Positions 25,082 through 45,210 of a stretch of 64,000 nt of DNA are shown here, one piece after another; position 1 is the first letter of the stretch; the number at the start of each line of letters is the position of its first letter. The notes beneath the pieces are model-generated. The model was not told where the DNA came from. It worked only from the letters and a program-made list of their open reading frames with translations, and did no database searches. Position numbers and translations under genes: made by a program. Source of the DNA: Kibdelosporangium persicum (GTDB lineage: Bacteria; Actinomycetota; Actinomycetes; Mycobacteriales; Pseudonocardiaceae); assembly GCF_013280595.1 (NCBI RefSeq), contig NZ_JAAATY010000019.1, positions 1 through 64,000 of the forward strand, given 5' to 3'.

Positions 25082-26092
25082 ATGCAGACTTCCCGGCGTG
25101 CTGTCCTGGGCGGAGCCGTTGCCGCGTTCCTCACACTCGGCACCGGCACGGCCGCCGCATCGCATCGACCACCAGGCGTTCGGCGGGTGCTGATCGCGAC
25201 CAACGAACCGTGGGGGACCTACCACGTCAAACCGCTGCTGGCCGAGGCCGCGCGGCGCGGTGTCCTGATCACCCACCTCGTTCCGGACTACTCACAGGTC
25301 AAACCGGACGATCCGGTCCCGGTGGCGACATGGGCCGACGCTCCTGCCGCGGATCTGCTCGTGGTGACCGGCGCCGAGCCGTGGCCCGCGGACTGTGCCG
25401 CGCACTTCCGCAAGCTGCCGTTGGCGGCCAGTTCGCTCGCCTACTTGAACCCGATCGAGGCTGCGCGGGCCAAGGAGGTGCGGCGCCGGCTACGGCTGAT
25501 CACCGCGTCCTCCCCGGCCGAGGCCCGGTCCTTCGGCAAGTACCTCGGCACCCGGCGGCCGATCGAAGTAGTGGGTTCACCGCAGATCGACGACCTGCCG
25601 AAACGTGCACCGGAGCAAGATCTCGTGTTGGTGCTCACGAGCGTCACGCACCCGGACAGCACCGGCAACGCCGCCCCGGGAACGGAACTGCTCCTCGCCG
25701 CCGCCGGGAACCTGGCCGCGGCGGGCAAACGGATCCTGGTCGGCCTGCATCCACGGGAGAACCGCAAGCTGTGGGAACGCTACGAGATCAGCGATGTGCC
25801 GTCGGTGCAGGCGTCCGCACGTGCCGAGGCGGCCATCGGGATTCCTGGAACGGTGTTCCCGCTCGTCACGGCGGTCGGCACGCCGGTCGTCGGATGTACC
25901 GATCCCCGGCTCACCGTGCCGGACTACCTGCGAGCCGTCTGTTCGTCGACCATCGAGAACGCCGCCGACGCGGTGTCCGCAGTGGACAACGCCCGTCTGC
26001 CTTCCCCGGAGGTCCTGGCCGATTCCGTCGGGCCGATCGGCGGTTCGGCCCGACGGCTGCTCGAAGCCTGGGTCAGGACACCGCCATGCTGA
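25082..26092 (+). CDS. Tat-exported protein of unknown function (336 aa)
   Basis: The N-terminus is a twin-arginine signal: TSRRAVLGG, then a hydrophobic stretch and AAA before Ser27. The exported part starts RRVLIATNEPWGTYHVKPLL and has GSPQIDDLP and LVLTSVTHPDSTG, then GIPGTVFPLVTAVGTPVVGC, vaguely like glycosyltransferase-B or epimerase folds. I do not recognise the family. Its ATG is 7 bases after TACGTT, so it may be leaderless. The 41-base divergent gap to the FAH-family gene must hold both promoters, and the 3' end overlaps cimA by 20 bases. Confidence 0.7.
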   Translation: MQTSRRAVLGGAVAAFLTLGTGTAAASHRPPGVRRVLIATNEPWGTYHVKPLLAEAARRGVLITHLVPDYSQVKPDDPVPVATWADAPAADLLVVTGAEPWPADCAAHFRKLPLAASSLAYLNPIEAARAKEVRRRLRLITASSPAEARSFGKYLGTRRPIEVVGSPQIDDLPKRAPEQDLVLVLTSVTHPDSTGNAAPGTELLLAAAGNLAAAGKRILVGLHPRENRKLWERYEISDVPSVQASARAEAAIGIPGTVFPLVTAVGTPVVGCTDPRLTVPDYLRAVCSSTIENAADAVSAVDNARLPSPEVLADSVGPIGGSARRLLEAWVRTPPC

Positions 26093-27704
26093 CGCGCAGT
26101 GCCTTGTGGACCAACGCGTCGCACAGTGCCAGCCAGCTCGCCTCGACGATGTTGCCGTGCACGCCGACCGTGGTCCATTCCCGCTGACCGTCGGTGGATT
26201 CCACGAGGACCCGGGTGACCGCGTCGGTGCCCGGGTCCTCGGTGAGGATGCGGACCTTGTAGTCGGCCAGTTCGACCTGGTCCAACCACGACAGGTGCGG
26301 CAGGAGCGCCTTGCGCAGCGCGGCGTCCAGCGCGTGCACCGGACCGTTGCCTTCCGCCGTGGCGATCATGCGCTCGCCCGCCACGTGCACCTTCACCGTT
26401 GCCTCGGAAACGACCGTTCCGTCGACGTGGTGGTCCAGGATGACGCGGTACGACTCGAGCACGAACGGTGGCGTGTCCACTGGGGACTGATCGGCCTCGG
26501 CGACCTGGGCACGCAGCAGCAGTTCCAGTGAGGCGTCGGCGGCCTCGAAGGACCAGCCGCGCGCTTCCATCTCCTTGACCTTGCGGACCGCGCCGGTCAG
26601 CGCGGCGGGCCGGCCGGCCAGGTCAACCCCGAGCTCACGTCCCTTGAGCTCCAGGCTGGCCCGGCCGGCCATCTCGGTGACCAGTACCCGCATGTCGTTG
26701 CCGACGACGCCCGGATCGATGTGGTTGTACAGCTCCGGATCGACTTTGATCGCGCTCGCGTGCAGGCCCGCCTTGTGGGCGAACGCTGACAACCCGACGT
26801 AGGCCTGGTGGGTGTCGGGTGCGAGATTCGCGATCTCGGCAAGGGCATGGGAGACCCGGGTGAGCTCCGGCACGCATTCGGTGGGTAGCACCGGCATGCC
26901 GAGCTTGGTCACGAGGTTCCCGACTACGGCGAACAAGTCGGCGTTGCCCGCTCGTTCGCCGTATCCGTTGGCGGTGCACTGCACGTGACTGGCACCCGCC
27001 TGGACCGCCGCGACGGAGTTCGCGACGGCGCATGAAGTGTCGTCCTGGCAGTGGATGCCGACCCGGAACCCGGTCCGGTCGATCACCTGCCGGACGGTGT
27101 CGGCCAGTTGCAACGGCAACTGGCCACCGTTGGTGTCGCACAACACGACCACGTCCGCGCCGCCGTCCACCCCGGCGGTCAGCACGCGCAACGCGGTGTC
27201 GGAGTCGAAGGCGTAGCCGTCGAAGAAGTGCTCAGCGTCGAGGAAGACCCGGCGTCCTTCGCCGACGAGGAACGCGACCGTGTCGCGGACCATCTCGCAC
27301 GCTTCGTCCACATCGGTCTTCAGGGCGAGCTCGATGTGCCGCCGGTCGGACTTGGCGACCAGCGTGACCACCGGCGCCTGCGCGTCCAGCAGGGCCCGTA
27401 CCTGCGGGTCCCGCGCGGCCGTCGTCCCGGCCCTGCGGGTCGACCCGAACGCGACCAGTGCGGCGTGCTTGAGTTCCAGCTCGCCTGCCGCGGCCCGCGC
27501 GAAGAACTCCGTGTCCTTGGGCAAAGCGCCCGGCCAGCCGCCTTCGATGAACCCGACGCCCAGTTCGTCCAACAGCCTGGCGACGGCCAGCTTGTCCGCC
27601 GCCGAGTAGGAGATGCCCTCACGCTGCGCCCCGTCCCGCAACGTCGTGTCGTACACGTGGAAGTCGTCGCCGAGCGGTGTGCCGGCCGGGGTCGTGCGGG
27701 TCAC
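26073..27704 (-). CDS. cimA: (R)-citramalate synthase (543 aa)
   Basis: It condenses pyruvate and acetyl-CoA to citramalate, which LeuCD and LeuB convert to 2-ketobutyrate for isoleucine. The TIM-barrel start VYDTTLRDGAQREG (residues 18-31), the metal-binding GIHCQDDTSCAVANS and VQCTANGYGERAGN match the CimA/IPMS family, and a C-terminal regulatory domain of about 150 residues follows. YDTTLRDGAQREGIS points to the CimA branch rather than LeuA. The GTG at 27704 has AGGAGAG 3-5 bases upstream. A peptide attenuator rich in Ile precedes it, in keeping with the product. Confidence 0.9.
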   Translation of the reverse strand: MTRTTPAGTPLGDDFHVYDTTLRDGAQREGISYSAADKLAVARLLDELGVGFIEGGWPGALPKDTEFFARAAAGELELKHAALVAFGSTRRAGTTAARDPQVRALLDAQAPVVTLVAKSDRRHIELALKTDVDEACEMVRDTVAFLVGEGRRVFLDAEHFFDGYAFDSDTALRVLTAGVDGGADVVVLCDTNGGQLPLQLADTVRQVIDRTGFRVGIHCQDDTSCAVANSVAAVQAGASHVQCTANGYGERAGNADLFAVVGNLVTKLGMPVLPTECVPELTRVSHALAEIANLAPDTHQAYVGLSAFAHKAGLHASAIKVDPELYNHIDPGVVGNDMRVLVTEMAGRASLELKGRELGVDLAGRPAALTGAVRKVKEMEARGWSFEAADASLELLLRAQVAEADQSPVDTPPFVLESYRVILDHHVDGTVVSEATVKVHVAGERMIATAEGNGPVHALDAALRKALLPHLSWLDQVELADYKVRILTEDPGTDAVTRVLVESTDGQREWTTVGVHGNIVEASWLALCDALVHKALRVSMAVS

Positions 27705-27740
27705 GGTCTCTCCTGGTGGTGGTCGACTATGCCGGACAAA

Positions 27741-27769
27741 CAAAAAACCTCCCGCAGGATGCGAGAGGT
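27741..27769 (-). terminator. Attenuator terminator of cimA
   Basis: On the minus strand a 10-base stem (27760-27769 with 27747-27756, one G-U pair) and a 3-base loop is followed directly by TTTTTTG. It lies between the leader peptide and cimA, 36 bases before the start codon. Confidence 0.88.
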
Positions 27770-27793
27770 CGGCGCGCCGGGTGATGGAACGAG

Positions 27794-27847
27794 CTACCCA
27801 GCGCGCTGGTCGATAATGATCACGGCATACGCGGTCATGGTGAGCAT
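27794..27847 (-). CDS. Leader peptide of the cimA attenuator (17 aa)
   Basis: The frame reads MLTMTAYAVIIIDQRAG and ends in TAG at 27796-27794. The run Val-Ile-Ile-Ile (GTG ATC ATT ATC) lies just ahead of the terminator hairpin, as expected of a ribosome-stalling attenuator that senses charged Ile-tRNA. The second ATG (27838) is an alternative start. No strong ribosome binding site is seen. I infer that Ile shortage lets the ribosome stall and prevents the terminator from forming. Confidence 0.75.
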   Translation of the reverse strand: MLTMTAYAVIIIDQRAG

Positions 27848-27909
27848 GAAACCACATCGTGAATCGGATGACCACTCCACGGTCGGCTGCTCCCAAGTCG
27901 TGGGAACGA

Positions 27910-28689
27910 TCATCGGCGTTCGGTCCAGGTGACCGTCTCGGCGGGCGCGACCTCCGCGTCCGGCGGGAGCTCGACCGGAGGCGTGGCGTTCCAGTCGGAG
28001 TACTTGCTGACCTTGGTGTTCCTGTGGCCGCTGTCGCCGGTGGACCGCTGTTCCACCTGCACCGGAAGGCCGTCGTGGTTGACCCATACCGTCGCCTCGA
28101 CCGGTTTCCTGCGAGCGGTGTTCGGGTTGGACTCGATGTTCGCGGCCGCAGTGAGCTCGTACCGCCACAAACCCTGGTCGTCCGTGCCCGGTGACACGAC
28201 GAGTGTCTTGCGGTCGAGGTCGAGGAAAACGCCGCTGGGCGCCAGATCGCTCAGGGTCATGCTCACGTCGCGCTCGACGTTCCACGTCCACGGCGCCTTG
28301 TGGTCGAGCAGGACCCAGCGCTTGCCCTGCGGCAGCTTGGCCCGCTGGTCCTGCAGGTAGAACTCCCGGGAGAACCGCTCGATCACCACCGACTCGACGA
28401 CCTCGTCGGTGTGGTAGGACTTGCGCCGTTCCACCATGCGCTGCGTCGGCTCCGGTGTGCCCTGCTGGTGCCACCCCTTGGACAACGGACTCATCTCGCC
28501 CTTGCGGTGCCACCACCACGACGGCCTGCCGTCCGATGTGAACTCGACCTCGAACCGGACGGACTCCGCCGCGCGCATCCGCTCGATCCACTCCTCGACC
28601 GAACCCGCCGGCGCCTGCACCGGTGTTTCCCGTGGCACGACGCCACAACCGGCCACCAGCAACACGACAAGACACAAGATCCGCGACAT
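27910..28689 (-). CDS. Predicted lipoprotein, 259 aa, unknown function
   Basis: The N-terminus MSRILCLVVLLVAGCGVV holds a lipobox (LVAGC, Cys15), so the protein is probably lipid-anchored outside the membrane. The body has SVRFEVEFTSDGRPSWWWHRKG, YELTAAANIES and EATVWVNHDGLPVQVEQRS, reminiscent of LppX/LprAFG-like outer-surface lipoproteins that use a cupped beta-sheet, but I cannot assign it. The ATG at 28689 has GCGGGGA next to it. It lies 28 bases after the WD40 gene on the same strand and may be cotranscribed with it. Confidence 0.72.
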   Translation of the reverse strand: MSRILCLVVLLVAGCGVVPRETPVQAPAGSVEEWIERMRAAESVRFEVEFTSDGRPSWWWHRKGEMSPLSKGWHQQGTPEPTQRMVERRKSYHTDEVVESVVIERFSREFYLQDQRAKLPQGKRWVLLDHKAPWTWNVERDVSMTLSDLAPSGVFLDLDRKTLVVSPGTDDQGLWRYELTAAANIESNPNTARRKPVEATVWVNHDGLPVQVEQRSTGDSGHRNTKVSKYSDWNATPPVELPPDAEVAPAETVTWTERR

Positions 28690-43174: not shown

Positions 43175-45054
43175 CAGATCTCATCCTCGTCGAACAACGG
43201 CCGGATTCCCCGGGCCGCCATGATCTCGTCGTTGCCGGTGCCCGCCGCGACCATCGGCCACACCTGCGCGTCCTTGCCGACCACGAAGTCGATCACGACC
43301 GGCCGGTCGTTGATCTCCAGCGCCCGCTTGATCACGGTGTCGACCTGGTCGCGGGTCTCACACCGCAGGCCCGCGCAGCCCAGTGCCTCGGCCAGCAGCG
43401 TGAAGTCCGGGATCCGGTGCTTGTGCGTGCCGAGATCGGTGTTGGAGTAGCGCTCGGAGTAGAAGAGGTTCTGCCACTGGCGGACCATGCCCAGGTTGCC
43501 GTTGTTGATCACGGCGACCTTGATCGGCGCGCCCTCGATGGCGCACGTGGCCAGCTCCTGGTTGGTCATCTGGAAGCAGCCGTCGCCGTCGATCGCCCAG
43601 ACCTGCTTGTCCGGCATGCCGAACTTGGCGCCCATCGCGGCGGGCACGGCGAAGCCCATCGTGCCGAGGCCGCCGGAGTTGATCCACGTCATCGGCTTCT
43701 CGTACTTGACGAACTGCGCCGCCCACATCTGGTGCTGGCCGACGCCCGCCGTGTAGATCGCGTCCGGGCCGACGAGCTGGCCGATCCGCTCGATCACGTA
43801 CTGCGGCGACAGCGTGCCGTCCGACGGCCACTCGTACCCGGCCGGGAACGTCTCACGCCAGCTGTTGATCTGCGCCCACCACGCGGTGAGGTCGGCCCCG
43901 CCGTTGGCGCCGCCGCGCTCGTGCTCGGCCTGCACCGCGGTGATCAGCTCGGTGATGATCTCCTTGCAGTCGCCCACGATCGGCACGTCGGCCTTGCGGT
44001 TCTTGGAGATCTCCGCCGGGTCGATGTCCGCGTGCACGACCTGTGCGTCCGGCGCGAACGAGGAGAGCTTGCCGGTCACCCGGTCGTCGAACCGGGCACC
44101 CAGCGCGATGATCAGGTCGGACCGCTGGAGGCAGCCCACCGCCGCCACCGATCCGTGCATGCCGGGCATCCCGAGGTGCTGCGGGTGCGAGTCGGGGAAC
44201 GCGCCCCGCGCCATCAGCGTGGTGACCACCGGGATGTTGGTCAGCTCGGCGAGCTTGCGCAGCTCCGCGGCGGCCTGCGCCTTGATCACGCCGCCGCCGA
44301 CGTAGAGCACCGGGCGCCGCGCCGAGGCGATCAGCTTCGCGGCCTCACGCACCTGCTTGCCGTGCGGCCGGGTCGTCGGCCGGTAGCCGGGCAGGTGTAT
44401 TTCGGGCGGCCAGGAGAAGGATGTGGTCTCCTGAAGGACGTCCTTGGGGATGTCCACCAGCACGGGGCCGGGTCGGCCCGTCGATGCCAGGTGGAACGCC
44501 TCGGCGATGGTCCGCGGGATCTCCGCCGGATCGGTGACGAGGAAGTTGTGCTTGGTGATCGGCAGCGTGATGCCGCAGATGTCCGCCTCCTGGAAGGCGT
44601 CGGTGCCGATCAGCGCCCTGGTCTGCTGGCCGGTGATGGCCACGACCGGGACGGAGTCCATGTTGGCGTCCGCCAGCGGGGTGACCAGGTTGGTCGCGCC
44701 GGGACCGGAGGTCGCCATGCAGACCCCGACCTTGCCGGTGGCCTGCGCGTAGCCGGTGGCGGCGTGCCCGGCGCCCTGCTCGTGCCGGACCAGGACGTGC
44801 CGCACCTTGGTGGAGTCGAGCAGCGGGTCGTACGCCGGGAGGATGGTCCCTCCGGGAATACCGAAGACCACCTCGCAACCGACTGCCTCGAGCGAACGGA
44901 CCAGCGACTGGGCGCCGGTGACACGCACCGGCGCGCCCGAGGGAGGCGCTGGTTTCGGACGGTTGGCCGGGGCGGAGCCGTCACCTGTTTTGGCTTCGGC
45001 TCCCGGTTTCGGCGCCCCGGGCTTCGCGGCGGGTCGCGATGTAGCGCTCGTCAT
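43174..45054 (-). CDS. ilvB: Acetolactate synthase catalytic subunit (626 aa)
   Basis: This thiamine-diphosphate enzyme makes acetolactate or acetohydroxybutyrate. The N-terminal [14 protein letters not shown] and [16 protein letters not shown] (catalytic Glu), and the C-terminal [15 protein letters not shown] and [15 protein letters not shown] (ThDP-binding GDG-N), are complete. It has an extra Pro/Ala/Lys-rich N-terminal tail of about 45 residues. It is the first gene of ilvB-ilvN-ilvC and is preceded by its own attenuator. The ATG at 45054 is preceded by AGGCAG. Confidence 0.96.
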
Positions 45055-45102: not shown

Positions 45103-45139
45103 AAAAAACCCCCGTCGACCGGATGGGTCGCACGAGGGT
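45103..45139 (-). terminator. Attenuator terminator of ilvB
   Basis: On the minus strand a 12-pair stem with one bulged G (CCCTCGTGCGACC against GGTCGACGGGGG), with loop CATCC, is followed by TTTTTT (45103-45108). It lies 48 bases before ilvB and 24 bases after the leader peptide gene. Confidence 0.88.
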
Positions 45140-45162
45140 CGCGCGTCGACGAGTCTGTAGCC

Positions 45163-45210
45163 CTAAGCGTCGACGCGCTTGGGAAGTACGAGACCAATCG
45201 GGTTGAACAT
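45163..45210 (-). CDS. Leader peptide of the ilvB attenuator (15 aa)
   Basis: The frame MFNPIGLVLPKRVDA ends with TAG at 45165-45163. It contains Ile, Leu, Val, Leu and Val codons in a short span just before the terminator. TACCGT ends 6 bases before the ATG, suggesting a leaderless message. Ribosome stalling under branched-chain amino acid shortage is inferred; similar ilvB leaders are known in actinomycetes. Confidence 0.75.
   Translation of the reverse strand: MFNPIGLVLPKRVDA

Follow-up and report, generated by a model that had tools for sequence, protein, structure and literature searches.

A putative isoleucine-tRNA-dependent attenuator upstream of cimA in Kibdelosporangium persicum and its likeness to actinobacterial ilvB leaders

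Attenuation of the enterobacterial trp, his and ilvGMEDA operons depends on ribosome stalling: stalling at codons for the end product decides whether a terminator or an antiterminator forms. In the trp leader, hairpin 1:2 is a pause hairpin that keeps RNA polymerase in step with the ribosome.

For actinobacteria, Seliverstov 2005 described leader elements at trp, cys/cbs, ilvB, leuA, leuS and trpS, and T-boxes at ileS (PMC1262725). The leuA element, LEU, was presented there as a candidate pseudoknot whose base stem pairs the Leu codons with the Shine-Dalgarno box. Regarding ilvB, the start codon of C. glutamicum IlvL lies one nucleotide from the transcript start (PMC11857589), and S. lividans IlvL is leaderless (PMC8079986). 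In mycobacterial ilvB1, a reporter whose BCAA codons had been exchanged for Ala codons was expressed at a low level that did not depend on the dose, and in the model proposed for it an antiterminator is masked once the ribosome reaches the stop codon (PMC13236596). Loss of the leader start codon is cited as lowering ilvB expression in C. glutamicum by 80%, and a further hairpin has been proposed (cited in PMC11857589). However, substitution of codons in the S. coelicolor ilvB leader is cited as having no effect on regulation (cited in PMC1262725). Two models have been published for Corynebacterium. In that of ilvB-II, the antiterminator is formed by the right shoulder of P2a with the P1 loop (PMC10272879); the three-hairpin model of C. 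glutamicum has a short overlap at the base of the terminator (PMC11857589).

We found no published report of an attenuator at cimA among the titles and abstract openings of one open-access library, in agreement with an earlier note on this DNA, which was aware of none in actinomycetes. The available text of Seliverstov 2005 does not mention cimA (PMC1262725), and none of the eight leader peptides given in the available text of an S. lividans RNA-seq study is at cimA (PMC8079986). The available text of one Breaker-lab survey has no passage on cimA or citramalate (PMC11109978), and the isoleucine and ilv passages of another contain nothing on either (PMC6429828).

Here, we analysed a window of 64,000 nucleotides from K. 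persicum. On its minus strand, upstream of cimA, the sequence and its list of open reading frames (ORFs) show an ORF that contains a run of Ile codons, followed by a terminator hairpin and its U-tract, at 27741-27847. It is very probably a ribosome-mediated transcription attenuator, by which transcription of cimA would depend on the charging of Ile-tRNA. As judged from sequence, the element is kin to the actinobacterial ilvB attenuators, and cimA was not previously reported as a target in the literature searched. Its features are given below in the order of transcription; counts refer to 81 cimA loci, that is, the window and the best 80 of 161 confirmed cimA relatives.

27870..27875, minus strand: likely -35 position, GTGGTC (TTGGTA in many relatives), from rows aligned by eye
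27846..27851, minus strand: likely -10 hexamer of the putative promoter, TTTCAT, 7 nt before the leader ATG at 27838
27794..27838, minus strand: putative leader ORF of 14 codons, probably leaderless, MTAYAVIIIDQRAG and stop
27812..27820, minus strand: control codons ATC ATT ATC (Ile-Ile-Ile)
27796..27806, minus strand: P1 5' arm, GCGCGCTGGGT, made of the last base of the Gln codon, the Arg-Ala-Gly codons and the first base of the stop
27772..27782, minus strand: P1 3' arm, ACCCGGCGCGC, from folding and covariation
27771..27771, minus strand: single base that separates P1 from the terminator (the spacing is 0 in 65/81 and 1 in 16/81 cimA leaders)
27746..27770, minus strand: terminator hairpin, GACCTCTCGCA-TCC-TGCGGGAGGTT, with a 3-nt loop
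27741..27747, minus strand: U-tract TTTTTTG, from the sequence
27710..27714, minus strand: AGGAG, Shine-Dalgarno-like sequence of cimA
26073..27704, minus strand: cimA, citramalate synthase, GTG start at 27704 (TIGR00977, 575.9 bits; cut-off 450)

The TIGR00977 score bears out the earlier assignment of the gene as cimA. The earlier note also described a 17-codon leader ending in Val-Ile-Ile-Ile. A 17-codon frame, MLTMTAYAVIIIDQRAG, does run from ATG 27847 to the stop TAG at 27796-27794; however, this first ATG shares bases with the last two of the likely -10 hexamer. Because it sits in the hexamer, the 17-codon frame would begin upstream of transcription, and the true start is probably ATG 27838, which gives the leaderless ORF of 14 codons. 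The Val-Ile-Ile-Ile run is present as well, but it is followed by five further codons, Asp-Gln-Arg-Ala-Gly, before TAG. A -10-like hexamer ending 6-7 nt before the later ATG or GTG was found at 78 of the 81 loci; its form is CAnnAT in 72/81 and TTTnAT in 6/81, the window being among the six, and L053, L054 and L075 do not fit the spacing. TTGGW or TGGT lies upstream of the -10 in 65 of the 78 loci scored. A generic scan of the 16-kb region gave no match to a sigma-70 promoter. The upstream gene, which is lipoprotein-like and on the same strand, ends at 27910, about 140 nt before the terminator. A search of NCBIfam with the padded leader peptide gave no match, as expected for so short a query. 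One ilvA model was run against the window's own genome and had no match over its cut-off.

RNAfold of the leader gave a second hairpin, P1, in which 27806-27796 pairs with 27782-27772. The single-hairpin picture of the earlier note has to be extended accordingly, since P1 covaries and holds the last leader codons. The stem and TTTTTTG were found where they had been placed, but the stem is not perfectly Watson-Crick: two of its 11 pairs are G.U. The fold of the window leader had z = -2.38, and equally good folding was reached in 2 of 200 shuffles. In the 16-kb region, a generic scan found 7 terminators against 6.2 expected, which is not above chance; thus, the evidence lies in conservation and not in the scan. 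When the whole window was searched with Rfam 15, only two tRNAs reached threshold, and no T-box or riboswitch family did so. With E up to 10, the region 27600-27960 gave only AS-traI, at 15.6 bits against a threshold of 99.

We take the 80 relatives to be Pseudonocardiales, except for L002 and L056. These two are labelled Rhodococcus rhodnii and Nocardia sp., and their cimA loci resemble those of Kibdelosporangium (96% protein identity to the window) and Lentzea, respectively, so the species labels may be misassigned. The element was present at all 81 loci. Three consecutive Ile codons were found at 69 and at least two at 81, and the terminator hairpin with its U-tract was found at 81. The frame and the hairpin are thus both kept in the comparison across Pseudonocardiales on which the earlier note had staked its reading. 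The flanking codons vary while the identity of Ile is kept. ORFs with Ile-Ile-Ile at most eight codons from the stop occur 68 times in 1,212,260 nt (both strands, 80 loci), and all 68 are upstream of cimA, with 0 elsewhere. ATT makes up 117 of the 231 leader Ile codons in the run (81 loci, duplicates kept) and, over the first 1500 nt of 80 cimA ORFs, 41 of the 1002 Ile codons; the run of cimA leaders uses a rare codon.

The RNA is conserved as a structure. Among the 66 distinct sequences, P1 and the terminator have standard pairs in 99.8% of cells, and 99.5% of P1 cells are paired. Five of the 19 pairs change on both sides, three of them in P1 and two in the terminator. The number of cells with changes on both sides was 31, compared with 9.4 in shuffled data, and none of 500 shuffles reached 31; relatedness inflates such counts, but controls with slid partners, which retain the relatedness, gave only 0-2 such cells. 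The leader peptide of L004 ends in RTG. At L037 (Kutzneria sp. CA-103260), the stop directly follows Ile-Ile-Ile-Ser, and the P1 5' arm is kept even though translation would now end before it, suggesting that the RNA itself is under selection.

To describe the spread of the element, we used a covariance model, R1, built from the 66 distinct cimA leader sequences, mostly of the window's family. It matched 113 of 120 family genomes, 112 of them strongly. For 111 of the 112 family cimA genes (111 genomes), a strong match on the gene's own strand precedes the TIGR00977 match by 50-160 nt; this is a count of coverage and not an independent test because R1 was trained mostly on the same family. The exception is a second cimA copy (G391:C268:9212-10753), which has no R1 match upstream, and the first copy has one. 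The sole strong match without cimA in the family set is in a 74%-complete genome (G306).

In a sample of 296 genomes of the phylum, R1 matched 51 genomes at E up to 0.01, which does not mean 51 leaders, as the low matches L112, L116 and L117 look like ordinary terminators by eye. Among own-class or own-order genomes of this sample with a strong cimA (best E below 1e-150), 12 of 13 carry the element directly upstream (window included; 11 of 12 without it). The same position, directly upstream of cimA, was found for 11 own-class or own-order loci of other families (L090-L100) and for one locus of another class (L102); the leader of L091, for example, reads MTSWHVATATVIID. The miss among the 13 is L159 (G214), in which no leader was found before cimA. 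There, a TAGACT hexamer stands 7 nt before the GTG of cimA, and cimA itself may be leaderless. The 29 non-own R1 loci comprise 12 at cimA, 10 upstream of ilvB, one at leuA and six at none of these.

We also fetched 40 cimA upstream regions from other classes. By reading, 11 of them have an Ile-run leader within 160 nt: 7/8 in family f30 (with four consecutive Ile in five of them), 2/4 in f48, 1/1 in f40 and 1/1 in f36. The other 29 had no Ile-run leader by the 160-nt filter; L141 and L144, whose Ile-containing ORFs lie 251 and 407 nt upstream of cimA, were left out of the 11. By eye, the U-tract is clear in four of the 11 leaders and weak in four (L120, L121, L125 and L152), and none is visible in L127, L128 and L136. 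These last three, from f48 (L127, L136) and f40 (L128), have Ile-Ile-Ile leaders ending in IIIRPLP or MIIIRGSR with no visible U-tract terminator, and the output step may be different there.

The actinobacterial ilvB leaders (Corynebacterium ilvBNC and ilvB-II, mycobacterial ilvB1 and Streptomyces ilvL) likewise consist of a short peptide with BCAA codons, a hairpin over the end of the ORF and an intrinsic terminator. R1 was trained on cimA leaders alone and also detects ilvB leaders, at 10 of its 29 non-own loci. The window has such a leader itself. At 45210-45103, on the strand of the cimA leader, there is an ilvB leader attenuator with the layout of P1 and terminator:

45163..45210, minus strand: ilvB leader ORF, MFNPIGLVLPKRVDA and stop, a sister element with L/V codons
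45141..45178, minus strand: P1 of the ilvB leader (45178-45168 paired with 45151-45141), from the centroid fold
45103..45140, minus strand: terminator hairpin of the ilvB leader with its U-tract, predicted by the minimum-energy as well as the centroid fold
43177..45054, minus strand: ilvB, acetolactate synthase large subunit, start at 45054 (TIGR00118, 765.7 bits; cut-off 538.35)

The minimum-energy fold of this 111-nt leader pairs the P1 region otherwise than the centroid fold. We found 28 ilvB leaders in 30 family genomes, most with a run of the LVL type and the end RVDA; none was found at L184 and L196 of these genomes, or at L197 among the other-family leaders. P1 adjoins the terminator with gap 0 in 28/28 of the family ilvB leaders, folded without the leader start. 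A hairpin over the last codons with the terminator directly 3' is the layout in 81/81 cimA and 28/28 ilvB leaders. In 26 family genomes with both genes on one contig, cimA and ilvB are on the same strand, 7.0-20.7 kb apart.

The cimA element differs from the ilvB attenuators in that it controls the dedicated step of the citramalate route and in that its codons are mostly for Ile. Counted from the third codon ahead of the run up to the stop, the 81 cimA leaders have 234 Ile, 89 Val and 14 Leu codons; the 28 whole ilvB leader peptides have 82 Leu, 63 Val and 19 Ile, with GTA (29) and CTT (30) frequent. The leader MSQNLLLT of a leuA (L101; TIGR00973, 713.5 bits) adds a third case. Thus, the earlier claim that the codon bias matches the end product holds beyond cimA, with Ile at cimA, Leu/Val at the family ilvB and Leu at this one leuA, and the leader codons, as read from these sequences, track the product of the pathway. 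The LEU element of leuA likewise places a leader peptide with BCAA codons before a gene of the same enzyme family as cimA; however, it is described as a candidate pseudoknot (PMC1262725), and the cimA leader has P1 and a terminator instead. At L101 (G052:C182), the Leu-Leu-Leu leader shows the layout of P1 and terminator by eye, unlike the LEU pseudoknot proposed for other actinobacterial leuA. At the ten ilvB loci of R1, the ilvB match starts 4-628 nt downstream. One of them, L111, has a GLLVVVT leader before an apparent isochorismatase-type ORF (MTKTALLIVDMQNDL) with ilvB behind it, and the leader may control a longer operon.

The mechanism that we propose is as follows. Transcription would start at the start codon of the leader, and the ribosome would load on the leaderless 5' end. 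With charged Ile-tRNA, the ribosome would reach the stop and cover the P1 5' arm, the terminator would form, and most transcripts would end before cimA. When charged Ile-tRNA is short, the ribosome would stall in the Ile run just before P1, so that P1 could form, the terminator would fail, and cimA would be transcribed. This gating logic is common to the model of mycobacterial ilvB1 (PMC13236596). We folded the leaders with the ribosome in defined positions, assuming that the ribosome covers 15 nt past the first base of the P site and that folding is at equilibrium. At least 6 bp formed upstream of the terminator at 81, 81 and 80 of the 81 loci with the ribosome at Ile1, Ile2 and Ile3, and at 0/81 with the ribosome at the stop, where 3-5 bp remained in 44 and fewer in 37. 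On this basis, the ribosome gates P1 in the folding model.

How P1 would prevent termination is the least certain step, and here our preferred reading is a tentative one, with slightly less than an even chance of being right. It holds that P1 is an antiterminator by abutment. The P1 helix, 0-1 nt from the base of the terminator, could not follow into the exit channel of RNA polymerase, and the lower terminator stem, which needs to close inside the channel, could then not close. P1 length is 34-50 nt (median 37, sd 2.0) in the 81 cimA leaders and varies more than the gap between P1 and the terminator, though not greatly. The gap is 0-2 nt in the folded leaders of the other families of the class and L102. 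However, it is 1-5 nt in the seven leaders measured among the eight of f30 and f36 (L120 left out), which counts against abutment. Moreover, because untranslated RNA also forms P1, the reported effect of start-codon loss in C. glutamicum is not predicted by abutment without a further hairpin. It is a more doubtful proposal still that abutment attenuators are a family to which the actinobacterial BCAA leaders (cimA, ilvB and perhaps leuA) belong, each with a ribosome-gated P1 that has no bases in common with the terminator but disables it from 0-1 nt away.

Alternatively, the same Ile-tRNA attenuator might use an antiterminator of the conventional type, with one arm of the terminator pairing with the P1 loop or another part of P1. 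The two published models of the related element (PMC10272879, PMC11857589) speak for this, and the arms of P1 are partly complementary to those of the terminator by eye. Neither the pairing of a loop with the terminator nor the overlap at its base, as in those two models, was found in the cimA element. In the 66 distinct sequences, duplexes of the upstream RNA with the terminator arms were on average no stronger than after dinucleotide shuffling (mean z -0.44 and +0.13), the second value being that of the 3' arm against upstream RNA including the P1 loop, as in an antiterminator of the ilvB-II type. In the equilibrium folds, P1 and the terminator have no base in common at 81/81 loci, and the terminator is predicted in every ribosome state, also at 81/81, which is against a conventional switch. 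Since the terminator appears in all states and its arms have no excess of pairing, no conventional overlapping antiterminator is supported; none sharing bases with the terminator was found in the 66 sequences or in the equilibrium folding of the 81. The cimA leaders also differ in this from the classical attenuators, whose conserved 2:3 antiterminator sharing a terminator arm has no counterpart found in them, and whose control codons lie inside the first hairpin instead of preceding its 5' arm. We therefore regard a conventional antiterminator as unlikely, and it is less probable again that P1 serves as a pause hairpin, keeping RNA polymerase in step with the ribosome, with termination decided by another step. 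The 5' arm of the terminator, which follows P1, is nearly invariant beyond the needs of pairing and could be a pause site; however, this reading leaves the antitermination step unexplained, and it does not require the gap of 0-1 nt between P1 and the terminator in the cimA and ilvB leaders.

Two further explanations would remove the peptide from the mechanism. A protein, a small molecule or a simple terminator might control the leader, the ORF being a by-product of conserved RNA. The report, cited in PMC1262725, that changing leader codons left ilvB regulation in S. coelicolor unaffected agrees with this, but the Ile identity is kept where flanking codons vary, the codons switch to L/V at ilvB and to L at one leuA, and no Rfam family reached threshold, so that we think it improbable. 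The ORF could also have arisen by chance before the ordinary terminator of the lipoprotein-like gene, whose end lies about 140 nt away and whose read-through would meet the terminator too. Against this, 68/68 short ORFs with an Ile run in 1.21 Mb sit at cimA, the promoter-like hexamer stands at a fixed distance in 78/81, and other families have the element with different peptide flanks; chance is an explanation to which we give almost no weight. The attenuator sensing Ile-tRNA through its peptide is the reading that we retain.

If it is correct, actinomycetes, very likely including Streptomyces, would gain an Ile-specific switch on the sole dedicated step of the citramalate route to isoleucine. 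It would be separate from the L/V-tuned switch of ilvB, found 7-21 kb off on the same strand in the 26 family genomes with both genes on one contig. As a pair, the leaders of cimA and ilvB would provide natural codon-swap controls. The absence of an overlapping antiterminator bears on whether the proximity of a hairpin alone can block termination. Should a family of abutment attenuators exist, termination would be switched by the juxtaposition of helices and not by competing base pairs, and one layout would be reused with a codon run that differs for each branch of the pathway.

Genus g8 of our sample is very likely Streptomyces because its ilvB leaders match S. lividans IlvL, the sequence of which is MRTRILVLGKRVG (PMC8079986). 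Five of the six readable g8 ilvB leaders are identical to it, with a single residue changed in the remaining one. In the eight cimA leaders of g8, which read MIIGSRRAGPQ or MLSFATIIGSRRAGPQ, Ile-Ile is encoded as ATT ATT.
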